In this document: piece by piece, positions 4,378 to 63,341 of the stretch
Layout of the letters: every line of letters starts with the position of its first letter
Numbering within the stretch: position 1 is the first letter of the stretch
Assembly: GCA_002839825.1 (NCBI GenBank)
Contig: PGYU01000006.1
Location: forward strand, 124,001 to 188,000
Reading direction: 5' to 3'
DNA: 64,000 nt
From: Ignavibacteriae bacterium HGW-Ignavibacteriae-1
GTDB taxonomy: Bacteria; Bacteroidota; Ignavibacteria; Kapaibacteriales; UBA2268
The notes under the pieces: generated by a model
What the model saw: only the letters and a program-made list of their open reading frames with translations
Told to the model about the DNA's origin: nothing
Databases searched by the model: none
Program-made: the position numbers and the translations under genes

Positions 4378-6768
4378 CTATTGAATTCTTATCTTGCGAC
4401 CAACGCTAAGACTGCGTTCGTCAATGTTTTTGTTTATTGATTTGAGTGAAGCTACCGAAACTCCAAATTTGCGAGCTATTTCACCAAGTGTGTCGCCTCT
4501 TTTAATAGTATAATGCTTGGGTGAGCTCTTAACATTCTTAATTTGAGCGGCAGAACTACCTTTTGCATCGGTCGAAGTATGAATTGTTAGCTTACTTTTT
4601 GCAAAAACTGTCGAACCTCTTATTTCATCAGGGTTCCACGCTTTGATTTGGTTCTCGGTAACGCGATATTTCGCAGCAATCGTGCTTAATGTTTCGCCTC
4701 TTGCAACCTTATGAACTATTGGTTTTGTTGAAGTTGCAATCGTAGGTTCGTTGTTTGTGCTTGATGCAATTTGCCCGTTTGCCGGAATTTTCAAATTCTG
4801 ACCGGAATAAATCTTATGTCTGTCAATTTTGTTGATTTTGCGAATTTGGTCTATCGAAACTCCGTAATCATCAGCAATTTGTGCCAGCGTTTCGCCACTT
4901 CTTACTTTATGGTAAGTAGTACCACTTTCGGTTTTGATTGGCTCAATATTGACTTGCGTTGATTTTTGGTTAGATGCAACTTGACCTGAAGAATTTATCA
5001 CCAAAACCTGTCCGATAGTAATTTTATCATCATCTAAGGATAAATTATTCAAATTTCTTAGTTCACCAACTTCAATTTCGTATTCTCTGGCAATGCTGTG
5101 AAGCGATTCGCCGGATTTGACTTTGTGAGTAGAAGAATTTGTCGAACTACCCGGGTTTGATGTTGGCGTTGAAGTTGCAGCAATTTCTGTATTAGGAGTG
5201 TTTATAACAGGAATAATAAGTTCCTGTCCGGTTTTTAATTTAGATTTTGTAGATTTCAAATTGTTCATTGCTACAATGTCCGAACTTTTGATTCCGTAGT
5301 TTTTAGCAATCTTAGTGATTGTTTCGCGACTTTTTACTTTATGAGTCATGAAAGGTTGCTTTTCTTCATCAGTCAAAGCCGCAAAATTCACTGCGAATCT
5401 GTCCTTAGAGCCGACAGGAATTTTCAAAGCATAAGGAAGTCTGTCCGGAGGAGTGCAATTTTTAATCAACTCGGAGTTCAAAGCTTTGACTTCGTCTAAG
5501 CTTATTCCTAATGCTTGAGCTACAGATTGCAAACTGACAGCCTCATTTACTTCATAGGTATCGTAACGATATTCTTCCTGAAAATTAAGCGAATCAATGG
5601 AAAAACCATATGCTTCAGGATTCATTGCCAAACGAGTTGTTGCGATATACATTGGCACGTATCCGCGAGTTTCGCGTGGCAATCTATCCATAACGTCCCA
5701 AAAGTCAGGTTTAGTGCCACCTGTACGTCTTATAGCACGTGATACACAACCGGGTCCGCAATTATAAGCTGCCATTGCCAAATGCCAATCTCCAAACTGG
5801 TTGTACAAATCCTTCAAGTGCCTCATAGCTGCAATAGTAGCTTTGTCGGGGTCACGTCGGTCATCAACGAAGATTGATTTATCTTTGTTCAAATTGTACA
5901 TTTCGCCTGTAGAACGAATAAATTGCCATAGACCAACAGCGCTCGCACTCGATACAATCGTCGGGTTAAGACCACTTTCTATCATCGAGAGATAAATTAT
6001 TTCTTCAGGCATATCGTATTCGCGGGCATATCGCTTCATCATCGGGAACCATTTTGAACTTCGTTCAAGCCAATTCCTGAAAAATTTAGCACCTCTGTTT
6101 TTCGTCATAAATGAAATTGCTTTTTCGACGGACGGATGGTCTGTAAGCGGTATTACTACATTAGTAGGTGCCTTTGGCAAAGTCGGATACCCCGGGGTAG
6201 CAATCTTTGTTCCGGCAATGTCTGGAGCATTGAATTCAAGAGGTTCGATTTCTTCTGCAATTTCAGAAGCAAGTATGTCCCTTATGATAAAAAATGATGA
6301 AGATTCATCAACTAAGTCAATATTTTTAATGTAATTTTGATAATCGTCAATTATTGATTGAGCCAAATCCGTAAAATCGTTATTGTTGTCAATGCCCGGA
6401 CTGCTCGAAATCATATTCAATTTATCTAAGGCTTGTTCAAAATATCTTGCTGCCCTTGCTGTATCACGCTTTTGAATGAGAATCAGGGCTTGGAGATACT
6501 TTTGACGGGATTGTTCAATGGTAGTAGTAACTTCATTGTTCTGTGTATGGATAGTTCTTGAACCTTTTTGGTCGTCAAGGTCAGAATATTTGTCGGGGAA
6601 AATTTTTGTATTTGTGCTATCGTTCCGAACATCGCCCTTTTGTGATGATTGGCGTGCTTTCGGTATTAATACAGGATAACCTTTAGATTGACAGAGCAAT
6701 TCTAACGGTTCAGCCATCATAAGCAAAACAAATAGAATTAATACATAGCCGATTTGGATATTTTTCAT
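4378..6768 (-). CDS. MltD-like lytic transglycosylase with multiple LysM repeats
   Basis: SLT domain (EEIIYLSMIESGLNPTIVSSASAVGLWQFIRSTGEMYNL, AMAAYNCGPGCVSRAIRR) followed by at least five LysM repeats (HKVKSGESLHSIAREYEIE...). Start placed at the internal Met giving a signal peptide (MKNIQIGYVLILFVLLM); ORF is open to 6792. Confidence 0.9.
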   Translation of the reverse strand: MKNIQIGYVLILFVLLMMAEPLELLCQSKGYPVLIPKARQSSQKGDVRNDSTNTKIFPDKYSDLDDQKGSRTIHTQNNEVTTTIEQSRQKYLQALILIQKRDTARAARYFEQALDKLNMISSSPGIDNNNDFTDLAQSIIDDYQNYIKNIDLVDESSSFFIIRDILASEIAEEIEPLEFNAPDIAGTKIATPGYPTLPKAPTNVVIPLTDHPSVEKAISFMTKNRGAKFFRNWLERSSKWFPMMKRYAREYDMPEEIIYLSMIESGLNPTIVSSASAVGLWQFIRSTGEMYNLNKDKSIFVDDRRDPDKATIAAMRHLKDLYNQFGDWHLAMAAYNCGPGCVSRAIRRTGGTKPDFWDVMDRLPRETRGYVPMYIATTRLAMNPEAYGFSIDSLNFQEEYRYDTYEVNEAVSLQSVAQALGISLDEVKALNSELIKNCTPPDRLPYALKIPVGSKDRFAVNFAALTDEEKQPFMTHKVKSRETITKIAKNYGIKSSDIVAMNNLKSTKSKLKTGQELIIPVINTPNTEIAATSTPTSNPGSSTNSSTHKVKSGESLHSIAREYEIEVGELRNLNNLSLDDDKITIGQVLVINSSGQVASNQKSTQVNIEPIKTESGTTYHKVRSGETLAQIADDYGVSIDQIRKINKIDRHKIYSGQNLKIPANGQIASSTNNEPTIATSTKPIVHKVARGETLSTIAAKYRVTENQIKAWNPDEIRGSTVFAKSKLTIHTSTDAKGSSAAQIKNVKSSPKHYTIKRGDTLGEIARKFGVSVASLKSINKNIDERSLSVGRKIRIQ

Positions 6769-6838
6769 CCTACTTCCCCAAATTTTGCACAAAATATTTT
6801 ATCAATATAACGCATTTTTTTATTGTAACAAAAAAAAA

Positions 6839-7651
6839 TCACTTTTTATTCTTTAATATTATTGAAATTAAAACGATTACGAAAAAAATCATCGTCTGAG
6901 TAATGACGATTATAGCTCCACTTGGTAAATCCAAAATGTAAGAAAAGATGATTCCCATAACCGAACTCAACATGCCGATAATCACCGAAATCACTGTCAT
7001 AGAGCCGAAAGACGACGATATTAGCCTTGCAGAAGCGGGGGGAATTACTAAGTATGCCGAGATTAGAATTATGCCCACAATTTTGATAGAAATGACGATT
7101 GTCACCGAAATCAGCAAAATCAATATGATATTGTCAAATTCTATCGGTACTTTGTCTGCCCCGGCAAGGTCAACATCAAAGGTTGAATATGCCCACCTTG
7201 CCCAAAGTTTGAAAAATGTCAAAATCGTAACCAATGAAAGCAGTAGTGCTATTATTAGCTCCTGGTCATTTACAGTCAATATCGAACCGAATAAATATGA
7301 ATAGGCATCGGACGTGTATTGTGTTTTGACAGCAAGAAAAATTATGCCGAGTGCGACCGATAAGGCAAATAGAACTCCAATCAAAGCATCGGCAGCTAAT
7401 TGAGTATATTTTTGAAGGTAAACAATAGCAATAGCAACGAGTATAGTAAATGGAACAGCAGTCAGCAATGGCTCTACGCCCAGTAGCAAACCAAGAGCTA
7501 CACCACCGAATGCTGCGTGAGCTAGCCCACTTCCGATGAAACTGATTTTGCGTTGGACTACGAATACCCCATAATAACTACCCGTGAATCCGGTCAATAG
7601 ACCTGCAGTCAATGCTTTTTGAAAAAAAGGATAAGTAAGTGCTTCTAACAT
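6839..7651 (-). CDS. znuB: Metal (zinc/manganese) ABC transporter permease, ZnuB-like
   Basis: 270 aa polytopic protein; GLTGFTGSYYGVFVVQRKISFIGSGLAHAAFGGVALGLLLG; adjacent to ATPase and His-rich binding protein. Confidence 0.85.
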   Translation of the reverse strand: MLEALTYPFFQKALTAGLLTGFTGSYYGVFVVQRKISFIGSGLAHAAFGGVALGLLLGVEPLLTAVPFTILVAIAIVYLQKYTQLAADALIGVLFALSVALGIIFLAVKTQYTSDAYSYLFGSILTVNDQELIIALLLSLVTILTFFKLWARWAYSTFDVDLAGADKVPIEFDNIILILLISVTIVISIKIVGIILISAYLVIPPASARLISSSFGSMTVISVIIGMLSSVMGIIFSYILDLPSGAIIVITQTMIFFVIVLISIILKNKK

Positions 7652-51477: not shown

Positions 51478-53295
51478 ATGAGCGCAACTCCCTTAGAACT
51501 TTTTAGAAATTTTTGTATTATTGCACATATTGACCATGGCAAATCAACATTGGCAGACCGTTTGCTTGAAATGACCGGCAGAGTTAGCAAGCGAGAAATG
51601 GTTATGAACCAAATCTTAGATGATAACCCTCTCGAGCAAGAACGCGGCATTACAATTAAATTGCACGCCATCCAAATGGACTACAAAGCCGAGGACGGCA
51701 AAACATATATTTTGAATTTGATTGATACTCCCGGTCACGTTGACTTTACATACGAAGTTTCTCGTTCGCTCGCTGCATGCGAAGGCGCTCTGTTAATCGT
51801 TGACGCCACTCAAGGCATTGAAGCTCAAACCATAAGCAATCTTTATCTCGCGCTTGGAAATGATTTGGAAATTATTCCTGTCTTGAACAAAATTGATTTA
51901 CCGAGTGCCATAACTACAGTGGATGACGTCAAACAGCAAGTAATGGAACTCATTGGTTGTGGCGAAGACGAAATCTTGCTTGCATCTGCAAAACAGGGTA
52001 TTGGCATTCATGAAATGTTGGAAGCGATTGTTAAACGCATCCCACCTCCAAAAGGCGACCCAAATGCACCTCTGAAAGCTTTGATTTATGATTCGATTTA
52101 TGATGCTTATCGTGGCGTAATCGTAAATGTTCGTGTTTTCGAGGGAACTTTACGCGAAAATGAAAAAGTCTTGTTTATGGCTTCCAATAAAGTTTACGAA
52201 ACAGAAGAAGTCGGTATTTTGTATATGACTCGCCACAGAACAAAAGAACTTTCTGCGGGAAATGTAGGATATTTTACAGCAAGCATCAGAGATTTACATG
52301 ATACCAAAGCCGGTGATACGGTTACATATTTCAAAAATCAATGCGTCGGAGCTATCGAGGGATTTCAAGTCGTTAAGCCTATGGTATTTTCGGGTATCTA
52401 TCCTGCGGATGCCGATGATTTCGAAAATTTACGCGAAGCTTTGGACAAACTAGTTCTGAATGATTCTGCAATTACTTACGAACCCGAATCATCTAATGCA
52501 CTCGGATTCGGCTTCAGATGCGGATTCTTAGGTCTTTTGCACATGGAAATTGTCCAAGAAAGGCTCGAACGCGAATTCAACCAGACAATTGTTACCACAG
52601 TTCCCAACGTACGATATAAAGTAATAAAAACCAACGGTGATATTGTTTTTGTTGACAATCCGGCAGAATTACCCAAACTCGGCGAAATTGAAGAACTTCA
52701 AGAACCTTACATCAAGGCTCAAACCCTCACACCAAATGATTATGTTGGCAATATCATGAAGTTGTGTATGGATAGAAGAGGTGTGCTAACCAATCAAATT
52801 TATCTGTCCGCAACACGTGTTGACATTCAATGGGAATTGCCATTGGCTGAAGTTGTATTCGATTTTTACGACAAACTGAAATCAATCACTCGTGGCTATG
52901 CTTCGCTTGATTATGAATTCATGGAATATCGCAAAGGAGATTTGGTCAAACTTGACATTATGCTCAACGGCGAACCTGTTGATGCTTTGTCGGCAATTGT
53001 TCATAGAGTAAAGGCTTATGATTGGGGTAAAAAATTATGCGACAAACTTAAGGATTTAATCCCAAGGCAAATGTTCGAAGTAGTGATTCAAGCATCAATT
53101 GGGCAAAAAGTTATTGCTCGCTCGACTGTGAAAGCATTGCGTAAAAATGTAACTGCCAAATGCTATGGTGGCGACATTTCTCGTAAACGTAAATTACTCG
53201 AGAAACAAAAAGCAGGTAAAAAACGTATGAAACAAGTAGGGAGTATTGAAATTCCGCAAGAAGCATTTTTGGCTGTACTCAGCATTGACAATTAA
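51478..53295 (+). CDS. lepA: Elongation factor 4 (LepA)
   Basis: [92 protein letters not shown]-terminal [25 protein letters not shown]. Start moved from 51349 because the extension overlaps the terminator. Confidence 0.96.
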
Positions 53296-53321
53296 TTTTA
53301 AGATTATAAATACAAAAAGCA

Positions 53322-54233
53322 ATGGATATCAAGAAATATTTCGCTAAGACTGCGAAACCGGCTAAGAAAAAACCCGAAACTTTTCAAGAGAGTTTGATTT
53401 CCTGGGTGAAAACCATTTTAGGTGCTATTATTGTTGTGATGATTATTAATGGTGCTGCAGTAGCATCTTTCGTTGTTCCGACAGGTTCGATGGAAAATAC
53501 CGTAATGACAGGAGATTTTCTTTTTGTCAATAAATTTATTTACGGTCCGACTACACCTCAACTAATCCCATTTTTGAATATCCCCTTGCCATTCTATAAA
53601 TTTCCCGGATTGAAAGACCCCGAGAAAGGAGATGTCATTGTATTTATTTATCCGGGTGACCGCGACGAAGTAAAGCCTGCGGATTTTGTTTATTATTTGA
53701 AACGTTGTGTAGCTGTCGCCGGCGATACTATTTCAATTGTAAACAAGCAATTAATCGTAAATGGTTCAGAGGTTCCACTTCCCGAATTTGGCAAATATGA
53801 TAGAGAACTGCCAATTTACCCTGGTGATAAATTGCGGACATTTCCTCCCGGATTGGGATTCACACGCGATAATTGGGGACCGGTAAGAATTCCGAAAAAA
53901 GGCGATGTAGTTGAGCTTAGTCCTGAAAATATTCGTGAATGGGAAGTGCTTATTGCACGCGAAGGACACGAAGTGGCATCAACGGCAAGCGGTATTTTGA
54001 TTGATGGCAACTCTGTTTCAACATATACAGTAGAGCGTGATTATTGCTTCGGGCTTGGCGACAATCGCGACAATAGTCTCGACAGCCGCTACTGGGGCTA
54101 TATTCCTTATGATAATGTAATTGGCACTCCAATGATTGTTTATTGGTCATGGGATACAAATATCCCTTTATCTAAAATAGTTGACAAATTCGGCTCGGTT
54201 CGATTACCAAGAATTGGCACAATTATCAAATGA
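53322..54233 (+). CDS. lepB: Signal peptidase I
   Basis: ASFVVPTGSMENTVMTGDFLFVNKFIYG, YYLKRCVAVAGDTI, GLGDNRDNSLDSRYWGYIP. Confidence 0.93.
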   Translation: MDIKKYFAKTAKPAKKKPETFQESLISWVKTILGAIIVVMIINGAAVASFVVPTGSMENTVMTGDFLFVNKFIYGPTTPQLIPFLNIPLPFYKFPGLKDPEKGDVIVFIYPGDRDEVKPADFVYYLKRCVAVAGDTISIVNKQLIVNGSEVPLPEFGKYDRELPIYPGDKLRTFPPGLGFTRDNWGPVRIPKKGDVVELSPENIREWEVLIAREGHEVASTASGILIDGNSVSTYTVERDYCFGLGDNRDNSLDSRYWGYIPYDNVIGTPMIVYWSWDTNIPLSKIVDKFGSVRLPRIGTIIK

Positions 54234-59552: not shown

Positions 59553-60263
59553 TTAATCGCTTTTGTTGATACTGATTAATTGTAAAAAAATATTATTTAA
59601 AGCATCTGTTAAATAGCCCTTGGAAATTAAATCATAATTTATTCCCGGGGCTATTTTTATATTTTCTGTGGCAATTTCATTTCCTGCTCCATCGCGAATC
59701 TTTACAAGATAATCTCCGCTTTGGATTTTAATGAATTCTGAATAGCTCGAATATGCAATTGATTGCTCGTGATTGTTCAAACCGATGAGCGAAAAGGTTA
59801 ATTCGCTCATGCCGTCAGTGAAATTCATCAATCTAACGCCCGACGAACCCGTTTGCAATGTTTCCAATTCATCTTCAATCAATGCAGTTAATGCTAAACT
59901 ACCTCGCCCGTAGGATATAAGCGAATAATGCTTATCTTTGGTGAGCAAGTATGCTTGATTGGCAATGACTTGATTTCGATTTATGGATTTGATGCGGATA
60001 AAAGAATTTCCGGCGTGAAATTTTTGATAAAGTGATGAATCCGAACCGGAATAATAGGCAATAGTGCTAATCTTAATGTCATTGCTTTCCAATTCGATTT
60101 CGGGATGGTCAGGCAAAGCGTTAATAATTCTCACAAACGAAGAGTTTTCGGGAGTAATTTCTTTGGGAGTCGTAATATCGGGGACACATTCACAACCACC
60201 AATAGCTATAACTGACAAAGCTAAAAAGGTTGCGAATGCGCCGTATAAAAATCTATGTATCAC
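59553..60263 (-). CDS. DUF4397-like lipoprotein
   Basis: Lipobox AIGGC; FVRIINALPDHPEIELESNDIKISTIAYYSGSDSSLYQKFHAGNSFIRI; 4-nt overlap with upstream gene. Confidence 0.7.
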   Translation of the reverse strand: MIHRFLYGAFATFLALSVIAIGGCECVPDITTPKEITPENSSFVRIINALPDHPEIELESNDIKISTIAYYSGSDSSLYQKFHAGNSFIRIKSINRNQVIANQAYLLTKDKHYSLISYGRGSLALTALIEDELETLQTGSSGVRLMNFTDGMSELTFSLIGLNNHEQSIAYSSYSEFIKIQSGDYLVKIRDGAGNEIATENIKIAPGINYDLISKGYLTDALNNIFLQLISINKSD

Positions 60264-61567
60264 AATCCTATTGTGACTCCGCTTGTAAATCCAATTTTGC
60301 GTGAATTATGAATATTGCCATTTACATTGTAAAATAAATATCCTACTTCAGCACCTAAGTTCAAATTAACTGTAGAAAATACATTCAAAACAACACCGCC
60401 TTGGAGCTTGCCAATCGGTCCAACACTTGTCCCACCGGCACTAACTTGCGCGTAAGGATAGAAAATATGTGACACTAAAACATCTTTAAAGGTCATTCGA
60501 TAACTTGCAGCGACCCAAATCAATTCAGGGCTTTGTAAATAATGCAATCCATCGGATGTCTTAAAATCTTGATTGAAACTTTCCATGCCAACGACTAAAC
60601 CAAATGTACTAAAATCATTAATGGAATACAAAAATGCACCTGACCAGCTTCCATTAGGACTTTGCAAGTTAGAATTTTCAAATGATGGCGAAGTGAAAGG
60701 TGATTGTAACATGCTAACTTGAATTTGAACTTTACTACCAATCATCGAATTTGCCGAAATCAATTGGAAATTGCTCAATCCGCCATTCATCGAAATCGAA
60801 TTGCCAAATTGTGATGAAGTATTTGAATTATGACTCGAACCGAACATCGCATTTCTTGCAAAATTCTTGTCAGATTGAATCCTGGAGCCTTCTATTTGAT
60901 TATTCATGCCCGAATTTCTGCTATTTTGCAAATTCCCCGAAGCCAAATCATAATCATTTTGGCTGCTTTGATTGCTCAATCCTGAGTTTGAATTAGCTCG
61001 CGAATTGTAAAAACTGTTTGCATTATTTCGGTTTGCATTATTAGAACTGCCCGAAAAAGCGGAATTACCCGACGCATCATTATTGGCGGAATTCCCGGTA
61101 GAATTGCTACCGTTTGCAGCTACATCGTCATCATCGCTATATGATGACATCATCGGAATATTATTTGATGATTTGCCAATAGCAGAGTTCCCGTTTGCGG
61201 ATGCTAATTGCGATTCGAGGTCTTGATTTTTTTGATATTCGAGCAAACCCCAACCCAATGCACCGAAGAACAGTAGCAAGAGCACAGCAGGAGCGAACCT
61301 ATTCAAGAAACGCTTGATGCTGCTGGTTGGCGATTGCACTGTATTTGCCGGAATAGCCATTCCGAGCCCTGCAAATATTGCATTTGTAACATGGATTGGT
61401 GGAGCAATTTGCGACATATCCTCTTGAGCAGCAAGGTGCATTTTGAACTGCGAATTGAACTCGTGCCTCAAATCATCACTTTGGGACAGCAATGCGAACA
61501 TAGCCTGCTCGTTCGTGCTGTCTAAGCCACCGTCAATGTAATCGTGTATCATTTTTGCATAAGACAT
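60260..61567 (-). CDS. Putative anti-sigma factor with TM helix, Asn/Ser-rich linker and C-terminal outer-membrane beta-barrel domain
   Basis: N-terminal cytoplasmic helical segment (MSYAKMIHDYIDGGLDSTNEQAMFALLSQSDDLRHEFN), TM FAPAVLLLLFFGALGWGLLEY, linker rich in N/S/G, strand-rich C-terminus (GGVVLNVFSTVNLNLGAEVGYLFYNVNGNIHNSRKIGFTSGVTIGL); immediately downstream of ECF sigma. Confidence 0.72.
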   Translation of the reverse strand: MSYAKMIHDYIDGGLDSTNEQAMFALLSQSDDLRHEFNSQFKMHLAAQEDMSQIAPPIHVTNAIFAGLGMAIPANTVQSPTSSIKRFLNRFAPAVLLLLFFGALGWGLLEYQKNQDLESQLASANGNSAIGKSSNNIPMMSSYSDDDDVAANGSNSTGNSANNDASGNSAFSGSSNNANRNNANSFYNSRANSNSGLSNQSSQNDYDLASGNLQNSRNSGMNNQIEGSRIQSDKNFARNAMFGSSHNSNTSSQFGNSISMNGGLSNFQLISANSMIGSKVQIQVSMLQSPFTSPSFENSNLQSPNGSWSGAFLYSINDFSTFGLVVGMESFNQDFKTSDGLHYLQSPELIWVAASYRMTFKDVLVSHIFYPYAQVSAGGTSVGPIGKLQGGVVLNVFSTVNLNLGAEVGYLFYNVNGNIHNSRKIGFTSGVTIGL

Positions 61568-61587
61568 TGTAAACTCACTATATATAA

Positions 61588-62157
61588 TTATTTATTAAAT
61601 TCATATTCATCGAAATACTTCTGTAAAATCACTTTGATTCTCTCTTTCGCTCTCCAAACTCTACTTCTTACCGTTGCGGCTTTCTCGCCGACAATTTCTG
61701 CAATCTCTTCATATTCCAATCCATCATACATTCTAAGTATAAAAACTTCTTTATATTCAATTTCTAACATATTTGATGCTTTGTCCAGCAGTTCTTTCAA
61801 TTCATACCTTTCATATTCTGAACGCTCTTCAACCATTATTGCTTCAACTAAGGGCACATGGTTTTTCTTGTCTCTGATTTGATTCAGGCATAAATTTCTT
61901 GCAATTGTCAACAAAAAGTTCTGCAAATTTCCGTAGTAATGATTTTTGTTTATCGAATTATAAAACCTTATGAACACATCCTGAAAAACATCGTTAGCTT
62001 CTTCTACATTGTAACTTAGTATCTTTTTGCAATAGGCATAAACCCTTCGTGAATATCGTTCGTAAATTTCAGCAAATGCAGCGTCCTTATGCTTTGTTGA
62101 AAACAACAAGCTTATGAGTTCAGGATCTTCCATTTGTTTGAAATTCATTTTCATCAT
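61588..62157 (-). CDS. ECF-type RNA polymerase sigma-70 factor
   Basis: FAEIYERYSRRVYAYCKKILSYNVEEANDVFQDVFIRFY (region 2), YKEVFILRMYDGLEYEEIAEIVGEKAATVRSRVWRAKERIKVIL (region 4). Confidence 0.94.
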   Translation of the reverse strand: MMKMNFKQMEDPELISLLFSTKHKDAAFAEIYERYSRRVYAYCKKILSYNVEEANDVFQDVFIRFYNSINKNHYYGNLQNFLLTIARNLCLNQIRDKKNHVPLVEAIMVEERSEYERYELKELLDKASNMLEIEYKEVFILRMYDGLEYEEIAEIVGEKAATVRSRVWRAKERIKVILQKYFDEYEFNK

Positions 62158-63290
62158 TTACCTTGAGATTGCCAAAAACCTTTTATTACCGAATTCGCTA
62201 ACACGTACGTTGTCTCTTTGTTTACTAAAGTACCGTCATAACTGATATTTGTCAAAAAGAGTGTCGAATAGCTAACTTTATCATATTTCGTTTGTAAATT
62301 GTACATTATACTTTTTCCGTTCGATAACCAAGTTGGTGATTTCGCCGATTCCCCATCGAACACATCCGTTATACGCGAAAATCTGTAATCATCGTCCAAA
62401 ATGTCAATCACCCAAATGTTACCGTCTTTACCCGACAGTGCCACAAAGTTTCCATCGGCTGAAATCGCAGGATCGGACGAACCTATCAAAGGTGATTCGA
62501 TAACGATTTCACGAATATTTCCGGAACTTATGTCAATGATTTTCAGCGTTTCTGCACCATTATTGCTAACCGATATTACAATACGCGTGTTGTCCGAGAA
62601 CCATTCGGGATGAATTTCACCGCGTTCGACCAAAGTATCTGAAATAATTGTCTGAAATATAACTTGAGTCGAGCCGGTTTCTTCTGTATTAACCACTTTC
62701 AGCACCACATCACCATTTGTCTCTTTTTTGAAATATGCAATCATCTTCGAATTTGGCGAAAACGCCGGAATCGTGTTGCTCGTAATATTGTCGTCAATTA
62801 AGTCGAAAATGTACGCTCCGTCATATTTGCTGATAAACAATCTCTTTTGTCCGCCGTTGAAAGCAATTTTCTTTCCATCCGGCGACATTATAGGATAGTT
62901 AATATCGAATAATGAACTCTCTTCGGCTACTTTCTGAAAATTCTTTCCTTCCGAATCAACCGAATATAAAATTTTATTACCGGAAATTGTATCCCGAGAT
63001 AGGACTGCCATATATCCGTTAGTAGAAGGCGCCGAGAATATCAGACCATTTTTGACCAAAGCCAACATTGCTGTGCCGTCATACTTGATACTATAAACGT
63101 ACGGTTCATCGGTATTGCCGGGCAATGATGTGAAGTAAATTCGATTTTCAGGATTTCCACCTGTATCGCCAATATCGCAAACATCGCAACTCATCAGCAC
63201 CATTACAATCAACATTGCAAGAAACAACCACCATGTCAAAGAACATAGCAAAGCATTTTTACAAATTTTATAATCTTTTTTAAATAACAT
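62154..63290 (-). CDS. TolB/PD40-type beta-propeller lipoprotein
   Basis: Lipobox VLMSC; PIMSPDGKKIAFNGG, PAFSPNSKMIAYFKKE, PEWFSDNTRIVISVS, PAISADGNFVALSG, PTWLSNGKSIMYNL repeats. ORF open to 63335. Confidence 0.82.
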   Translation of the reverse strand: MLFKKDYKICKNALLCSLTWWLFLAMLIVMVLMSCDVCDIGDTGGNPENRIYFTSLPGNTDEPYVYSIKYDGTAMLALVKNGLIFSAPSTNGYMAVLSRDTISGNKILYSVDSEGKNFQKVAEESSLFDINYPIMSPDGKKIAFNGGQKRLFISKYDGAYIFDLIDDNITSNTIPAFSPNSKMIAYFKKETNGDVVLKVVNTEETGSTQVIFQTIISDTLVERGEIHPEWFSDNTRIVISVSNNGAETLKIIDISSGNIREIVIESPLIGSSDPAISADGNFVALSGKDGNIWVIDILDDDYRFSRITDVFDGESAKSPTWLSNGKSIMYNLQTKYDKVSYSTLFLTNISYDGTLVNKETTYVLANSVIKGFWQSQGK

Positions 63291-63341
63291 ACCTTCTCTA
63301 TATATAAAGACACAACAATGGCAAAAAAATCTCAAATTATT

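Follow-up and report, generated by a model that had tools for sequence, protein, structure and literature searches.

We identified a predicted single-chain anti-sigma factor in Ignavibacteriae bacterium HGW-Ignavibacteriae-1 (assembly GCA_002839825.1), within a stretch of 64,000 nucleotides (contig PGYU01000006.1, positions 124,001 to 188,000; hereafter the window, in whose own numbering positions are given). This protein of 435 amino acids (aa), encoded on the minus strand at 60260..61567, very probably links control of an extracytoplasmic function (ECF) sigma factor in the cytoplasm to the outer membrane, as judged from sequence profiles, a structural model and analogy with known systems, and was designated a predicted Dma-like dual-membrane anti-sigma factor. 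Four parts were recognised along the chain, all on the minus strand: a cytoplasmic class-I anti-sigma domain of four helices (aa 1–80, 61328..61567), a single transmembrane helix (aa 91–109, 61241..61297), a disordered Asn/Ser-rich tether (aa 125–276, 60740..61195) and an eight-stranded outer-membrane-type β-barrel (aa 277–435, 60260..60739). The original prediction, made from the sequence alone, had proposed the same layout, which holds with small shifts in the boundaries (for example, disorder at aa 125–276 instead of 112–266), and inspection of the reading frames confirmed its coordinates, strand and gene order.

Parts of the 435-aa chain

Assignment of aa 1–80 to the class-I anti-sigma domains is supported by both profile and structural comparisons, as the original prediction had inferred for the N-terminus. 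A profile of this domain matched RsiW (5wuq, SigW-RsiW complex) over its length with an E-value of 1.1e-5 and RseA with an E-value of 0.18, and the RseA_N model was matched by 2 of 33 family members (best E 6e-6). In the AlphaFold2 model, the four helices had a predicted local distance difference test score (pLDDT) of 78; helices were located at aa 3–68, and one long helix (aa 80–124) contained the hydrophobic stretch at aa 91–109. When the N-terminal domain was searched with Foldseek, the top nine of 350,542 chains were all sigma-bound anti-sigma factors (RsiW, MucA, RslA and ChrR). Stand-alone proteins of ~155 aa with a single transmembrane helix are encoded beside sigma genes in other parts of the class and were similar to this domain (hhalign 98%); one of them matched NCBIfam anti-sigma models below the cut-off. 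The zinc motif HxxxCxxC of the ZAS subgroup was absent, and as aa 1–80 contain no Cys there is no zinc site, a feature shared with RseA. A single-sequence Pfam/NCBIfam scan of the 435-aa protein gave nothing useful.

The same anti-sigma domain was also found on other chains. In one protein of the same phylum (L151, 2539-3180), the domain and the transmembrane helix precede a module that resembles glycogen-binding domains (AMPK1_CBM, E 5e-8; CBM48), and two further proteins of the phylum with this domain and helix (L152 and L156) have C-terminal ends that look similar to it by eye. In other families of the class, the domain is present on chains of 398–599 aa (L143, L144, L146, L147, L149 and L155), whose C-terminal parts do not match the barrel profile of the window protein; their mostly aromatic or barrel-like ends suggest that barrels have been swapped.

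The hydrophobic stretch at aa 91–109 is the only strong hydrophobic peak of the chain. Over 60 family members, 125 Lys and Arg residues were counted on the N-terminal side of the helix and 70 on the C-terminal side, and therefore an N-in topology was assigned; it was favoured in 39 members and disfavoured in 13. The charge counts and the single hydrophobic peak support the cytoplasmic N-terminus and single membrane pass originally suggested. The following residues 125–276 were predicted to be disordered (pLDDT ~30 in the AlphaFold2 model). Tether length in the family, calculated from hmmalign boundaries, which replaced a noisy earlier estimate from local hidden Markov model starts, was 155 ± 23 aa (n=59, range 117–225). 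Ser (14%) and Asn (13%) contributed to tether composition across the family, and the extreme Asn/Ser content of the window tether is a feature of its lineage, not a family rule. At 0.36 nm per residue, 152 residues have a contour length of ~55 nm, and the tether would therefore be long enough to cross a periplasm of 20–30 nm.

The remainder of the chain was modelled as eight main strands (aa 280–434) with an extra hairpin at aa 333–345; pLDDT was 71–94 over most of aa 311–435 and lower at aa 291–305. All 13 Foldseek matches of the C-terminal domain with E < 1e-3 were outer-membrane barrels or models thereof, including OmpA (5e-6), FadL, NspA, Ail and OprF, and natural eight-stranded barrels had target-normalised TM-scores of ~0.4–0.6 to this domain. 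In addition, the barrel profile matched a 207-aa signal-peptide-containing outer-membrane protein (OMP) of the same phylum (hhalign 97%), which itself matches OMP_b-brl with an E-value of 1.9e-19. The strand-rich, barrel-like C-terminus noticed originally is thus modelled as an eight-stranded barrel of the OmpA type, an assignment supported by the structural matches.

Conservation of the chain and its gene neighbourhood

The four-part chain is real and conserved, and is not a fusion artefact. Using the protein as query, we detected full-length homologues in 58 of 61 related genomes, with no more than 24 matches per genome, and ~60 distinct full-length homologues have the same four-part layout. 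An alignment of 36 distinct full or partial proteins showed a conserved N-terminal domain, one transmembrane helix, a hypervariable linker and a conserved C-terminal domain. The 3.2-Mb genome that contains the window encodes nine such proteins, as detected by domain profiles, and has 19 matches to sigma region 4. A class-wide scan found the barrel profile in 48 of 149 genomes, almost exclusively in open reading frames (ORFs) of ~350–570 aa; some of the exceptions were fragments at contig ends. This profile also reached families outside the order, and three of those checked carry the sigma factor, the N-terminal domain and the barrel. The named relatives were mostly metagenome-assembled genomes (MAGs) of Ca. 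Kapabacteria, Ignavibacteria and Bacteroidetes. One copy with 84–85% identity occurs in a record titled Desulfobulbaceae (L038, JAGXRP010000075.1), which is probably a mislabelled MAG.

Two congeners have homologues 85–91% identical to the 435-aa protein. The ratio of nonsynonymous to synonymous substitution rates (dN/dS) between congeners was 0.00–0.28, indicating purifying selection in every scorable segment, and was 0.14–0.17 in the linker; in two of the three congener comparisons, dS had reached saturation in the transmembrane segment.

An ECF sigma gene was located directly upstream of the homologue at all 37 loci examined from the genome search and at 14 of 14 loci in named contigs, the latter scan being based on a closer subset of homologues as the wider alignment was too divergent. 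At nearly all loci the sigma and anti-sigma genes are separated by a short gap or overlap. The homologues in related genomes show the architecture first seen in the window, with the sigma gene upstream essentially always.

In the window, four genes lie on the minus strand in the order TolB-like lipoprotein, sigma factor, anti-sigma factor and DUF4397 lipoprotein. The first (62154..63290) encodes a PD40/TolB-like β-propeller lipoprotein of 378 aa (PD40, E 4.2e-8; TolB propeller, E 4.2e-19) and likely starts at the ATG at 63290 and not at the TTG at 63335. It overlaps by 4 nt (62154/62157) with the gene for the 189-aa ECF sigma factor (61588..62157; Sigma70_r2, E 9e-14; r4_2, E 5e-13), which directly precedes the 435-aa ORF with a gap of 20 nt. 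The last gene, encoding a 236-aa DUF4397 lipoprotein with a GTG start (59553..60263; DUF4397, E 1.1e-15), overlaps the 435-aa ORF by 4 nt (60260/60263). Both overlaps and the position of the sigma gene are as originally reported. A promoter scan produced fewer matches than in shuffled sequences, and therefore no promoter is claimed.

Both lipoproteins noted in the original prediction proved to be conserved neighbours. At 46 of the 63 loci whose flanks were long enough, the gene directly downstream of the anti-sigma gene encodes a predicted lipoprotein; applied to the window, this rule marked 4 of 49 genes, two of which belong to the anti-sigma locus. A strict lipobox undercounted such proteins, and the looser rule used here still missed evident cases (L016 and L143). 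Sixteen of 40 downstream lipoproteins were DUF4397 proteins, and the mature proteins often began with C-E-C-x-x-x-I-x-T-P or C-x-[SND]-P-x-D. A TolB/PD40 homologue was present directly upstream of the sigma gene at ~30 loci of the same orthologous group. These lipoproteins may be functional parts of the system, or else merely co-transcribed neighbours. In Thermoanaerobacter tengcongensis, the anti-sigma factor cognate to an ECF sigma is reported to be the product of a gene called tolB (PMC3397946).

Proposed mechanism and competing explanations

We propose that aa 1–80 would bind the ECF sigma factor encoded just upstream and keep it off RNA polymerase, that the helix at aa 91–109 would anchor the chain N-in in the inner membrane, that the ~150 disordered residues would span the periplasm and that the OmpA-type eight-stranded barrel would sit in the outer membrane. 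Because of the homology of the anti-sigma domain, the sigma factor is expected to be held at the inner membrane. The trigger would come from the outer membrane, for example an altered barrel state, a ligand at the surface or an effect of the partner lipoproteins. By analogy, the barrel could report the state of that membrane via the tether, and the sigma factor could be freed either mechanically, by pulling on the tether or helix, or by their proteolysis, after which it would direct transcription of its own cassette and of further genes. We infer sigma binding, insertion of the intact chain in the outer membrane, the signal and the release step. Evolutionary distances were correlated between the sigma factor and the anti-sigma domain (r 0.70), the sigma factor and the barrel (0.46), and the anti-sigma domain and the barrel (0.55), all of which exceeded shuffles. 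Several points weigh against the proposal. The correlation between sigma and anti-sigma distances is confounded by relatedness and was weak (0.28) among the seven paralogues tested from the window's own genome; Foldseek E-values of the N-terminal domain were weak (0.1 and above), though the ranking was clean; the full-length AlphaFold2 model had a predicted TM-score of 0.38; and contact of a single intact chain with both membranes would be an extrapolation from sequence and model.

The evolutionary origin of this layout can be viewed in two ways. A one-chain, two-membrane anti-sigma layout was reportedly described in gut Bacteroides in 2024. The original prediction knew of no named system with this layout, but the Bacteroides Dma (dual membrane-spanning anti-sigma) proteins, including Dma1 and Dma2, have exactly the same four parts; they occur solely in Bacteroidota, are encoded beside ECF21 sigmas, and the consequences of losing Dma2 are mediated by its sigma factor, Das2 (PMC13088901). 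We located Bacteroidales sigma-Dma-DUF4943 operons and their relatives, in which the gene order corresponds to that of dma2. The window protein might truly belong to the Dma family but have diverged strongly, the architecture having a single common ancestor, a possibility that we rate somewhat below an even chance. Consistent with it are the identical order of sigma-binding domain, one transmembrane helix, long disordered tether and C-terminal barrel, with the ECF gene directly upstream; similar tether lengths (165 ± 25 aa in Bacteroidales, n=23, obtained with a slightly different boundary method, versus 155 ± 23 aa); a lipoprotein gene downstream in both (small, with DUF4943, in the Bacteroidales dma2-type operon); and placement in one phylum by the genome taxonomy applied. 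However, hhalign detected no match between the N-terminal domain and the Bacteroidales Dma set (0.2%), and the barrels gave 21% over 29 columns that were out of register, whereas the positive controls, plain single-transmembrane anti-sigma factors and the stand-alone signal-peptide OMP, gave 98% and 97%, respectively. The part preceding the membrane helix is also shorter in Bacteroidales (~50 aa versus ~90 aa), and for this reason the missing N-domain signal is weaker evidence. In the sigma tree, the Bacteroidales and Kapabacterial partner sigmas formed separate clades with Shimodaira-Hasegawa-like approximate likelihood ratio test support of 99–100, but one joint sigma clade was not rejected by the approximately unbiased test (p-AU 0.57 and 0.39).

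As no profile match was found and one joint sigma clade was not rejected, we describe the window protein as working like Dma and leave membership open; plain filing in the Dma family was set aside after the hhalign comparison. It is conceivable, with a likelihood approaching but not reaching one in two, that the one-chain anti-sigma factor evolved on at least two separate occasions in the phylum, once in the Kapabacteria-type class and once as Bacteroidales Dma, and that the lipoproteins are part of the sensing complex. In the former case, a class-I RsiW/RseA-like anti-sigma factor would have been joined to an OmpA-type barrel via a ~150-aa tether. If there were two origins, periplasm width would account for the resemblance in tether length (155 and 165 aa). 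Four Bacteroidales chains of 564–573 aa (L130, L133, L136 and L137) carry a sigma domain fused to the front of the Dma part, an arrangement already described for Dma3.

A second explanation, which we consider unlikely, is that the single ORF is translated as one chain, but that cleavage within or close to the linker, either in maturation or as the signal itself, normally splits it into an outer-membrane barrel and an inner-membrane anti-sigma factor of the conventional type. Proteases readily attack long unstructured linkers, and regulated proteolysis is the usual release step of class-I anti-sigma factors. However, a discarded spacer would need neither the maintained tether length (117–225 aa, standard deviation 23) nor the low linker dN/dS (0.14–0.17). 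It is far less probable that the C-terminal domain is a soluble periplasmic sensor and the protein an ordinary single-membrane anti-sigma factor. The window protein ends in Leu and not Phe (Leu is the last residue in 10 of 60 members), and a Pfam OMP model was reached by only 2 of 33 members, weakly; but an aromatic residue is present within the last three positions in 47 of 60 members, all structural matches below the threshold were outer-membrane barrels or their models, and homology extends to a signal-peptide OMP. Finally, joining of two genes by a frameshift or assembly error, a check raised originally, is excluded with near certainty by the ~60 intact homologues and the 85–91% identity in two congeners.

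Comparison with known systems

The 435-aa chain shares with the class-I anti-sigma factors RsiW, RseA and MucA a homologous cytoplasmic domain and a single N-in transmembrane helix; however, these proteins end in small periplasmic parts and have no outer-membrane barrel. Its barrel has the same eight-stranded fold as OmpA, OprF and NspA (Foldseek), but has a cytoplasmic domain and an inner-membrane helix in front of it where those proteins have a signal peptide. In the FecA/FecR system, the barrel, a TonB-dependent receptor, and the anti-sigma factor are separate proteins. The window system would resemble it in that the state of the outer membrane is reported to an ECF sigma factor; we did not file it under FecA/FecR, since no Pfam match to the FecR domain or TonB-dependent receptor was found in the four locus proteins or in 33 family members.

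A different type of chain was observed in the window's own genome (G000), where ECF genes at three loci (C8:67739-69364, L172; C8 ~52118-53719, L171; C32 ~4812-6962, L173) are followed by genes for proteins of 533–717 aa. These contain one transmembrane helix near aa 46–57 and end in a sorting domain for type IX secretion (PF18962, E 5e-13 to 5e-10). Their homologues were matched in 39 of 41 genomes, many of the matches being to the sorting tail alone, and an ECF gene was directly upstream at 8 of 8 loci with enough flank. They are possibly a second one-chain anti-sigma design, ending at the type IX machinery.

Several proteins are normally needed to relay a surface signal from outer membrane to sigma factor, and no wire simpler than one tethered chain can be imagined. 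A second, seemingly unrelated family with several copies per genome, across a class of which hardly any members have been cultured, would, if shown, make this a general strategy and not a Bacteroides oddity. By comparing the two families, one could also test what determines the length of the tether, and conserved lipoprotein partners can now be named beside a one-chain anti-sigma factor. From sequence comparison, the window protein appears to work like Bacteroides Dma with no detectable sequence relationship to it, and to belong to a distinct family, which differs in its RsiW/RseA-type domain of ~80–90 aa and in its partner lipoproteins (DUF4397 and TolB-like) and reaches as many as 24 matches per genome. 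The layout was thus already known from Bacteroides; what seems new is a family apparently built from different parts, common across its class and usually accompanied by a partner lipoprotein.

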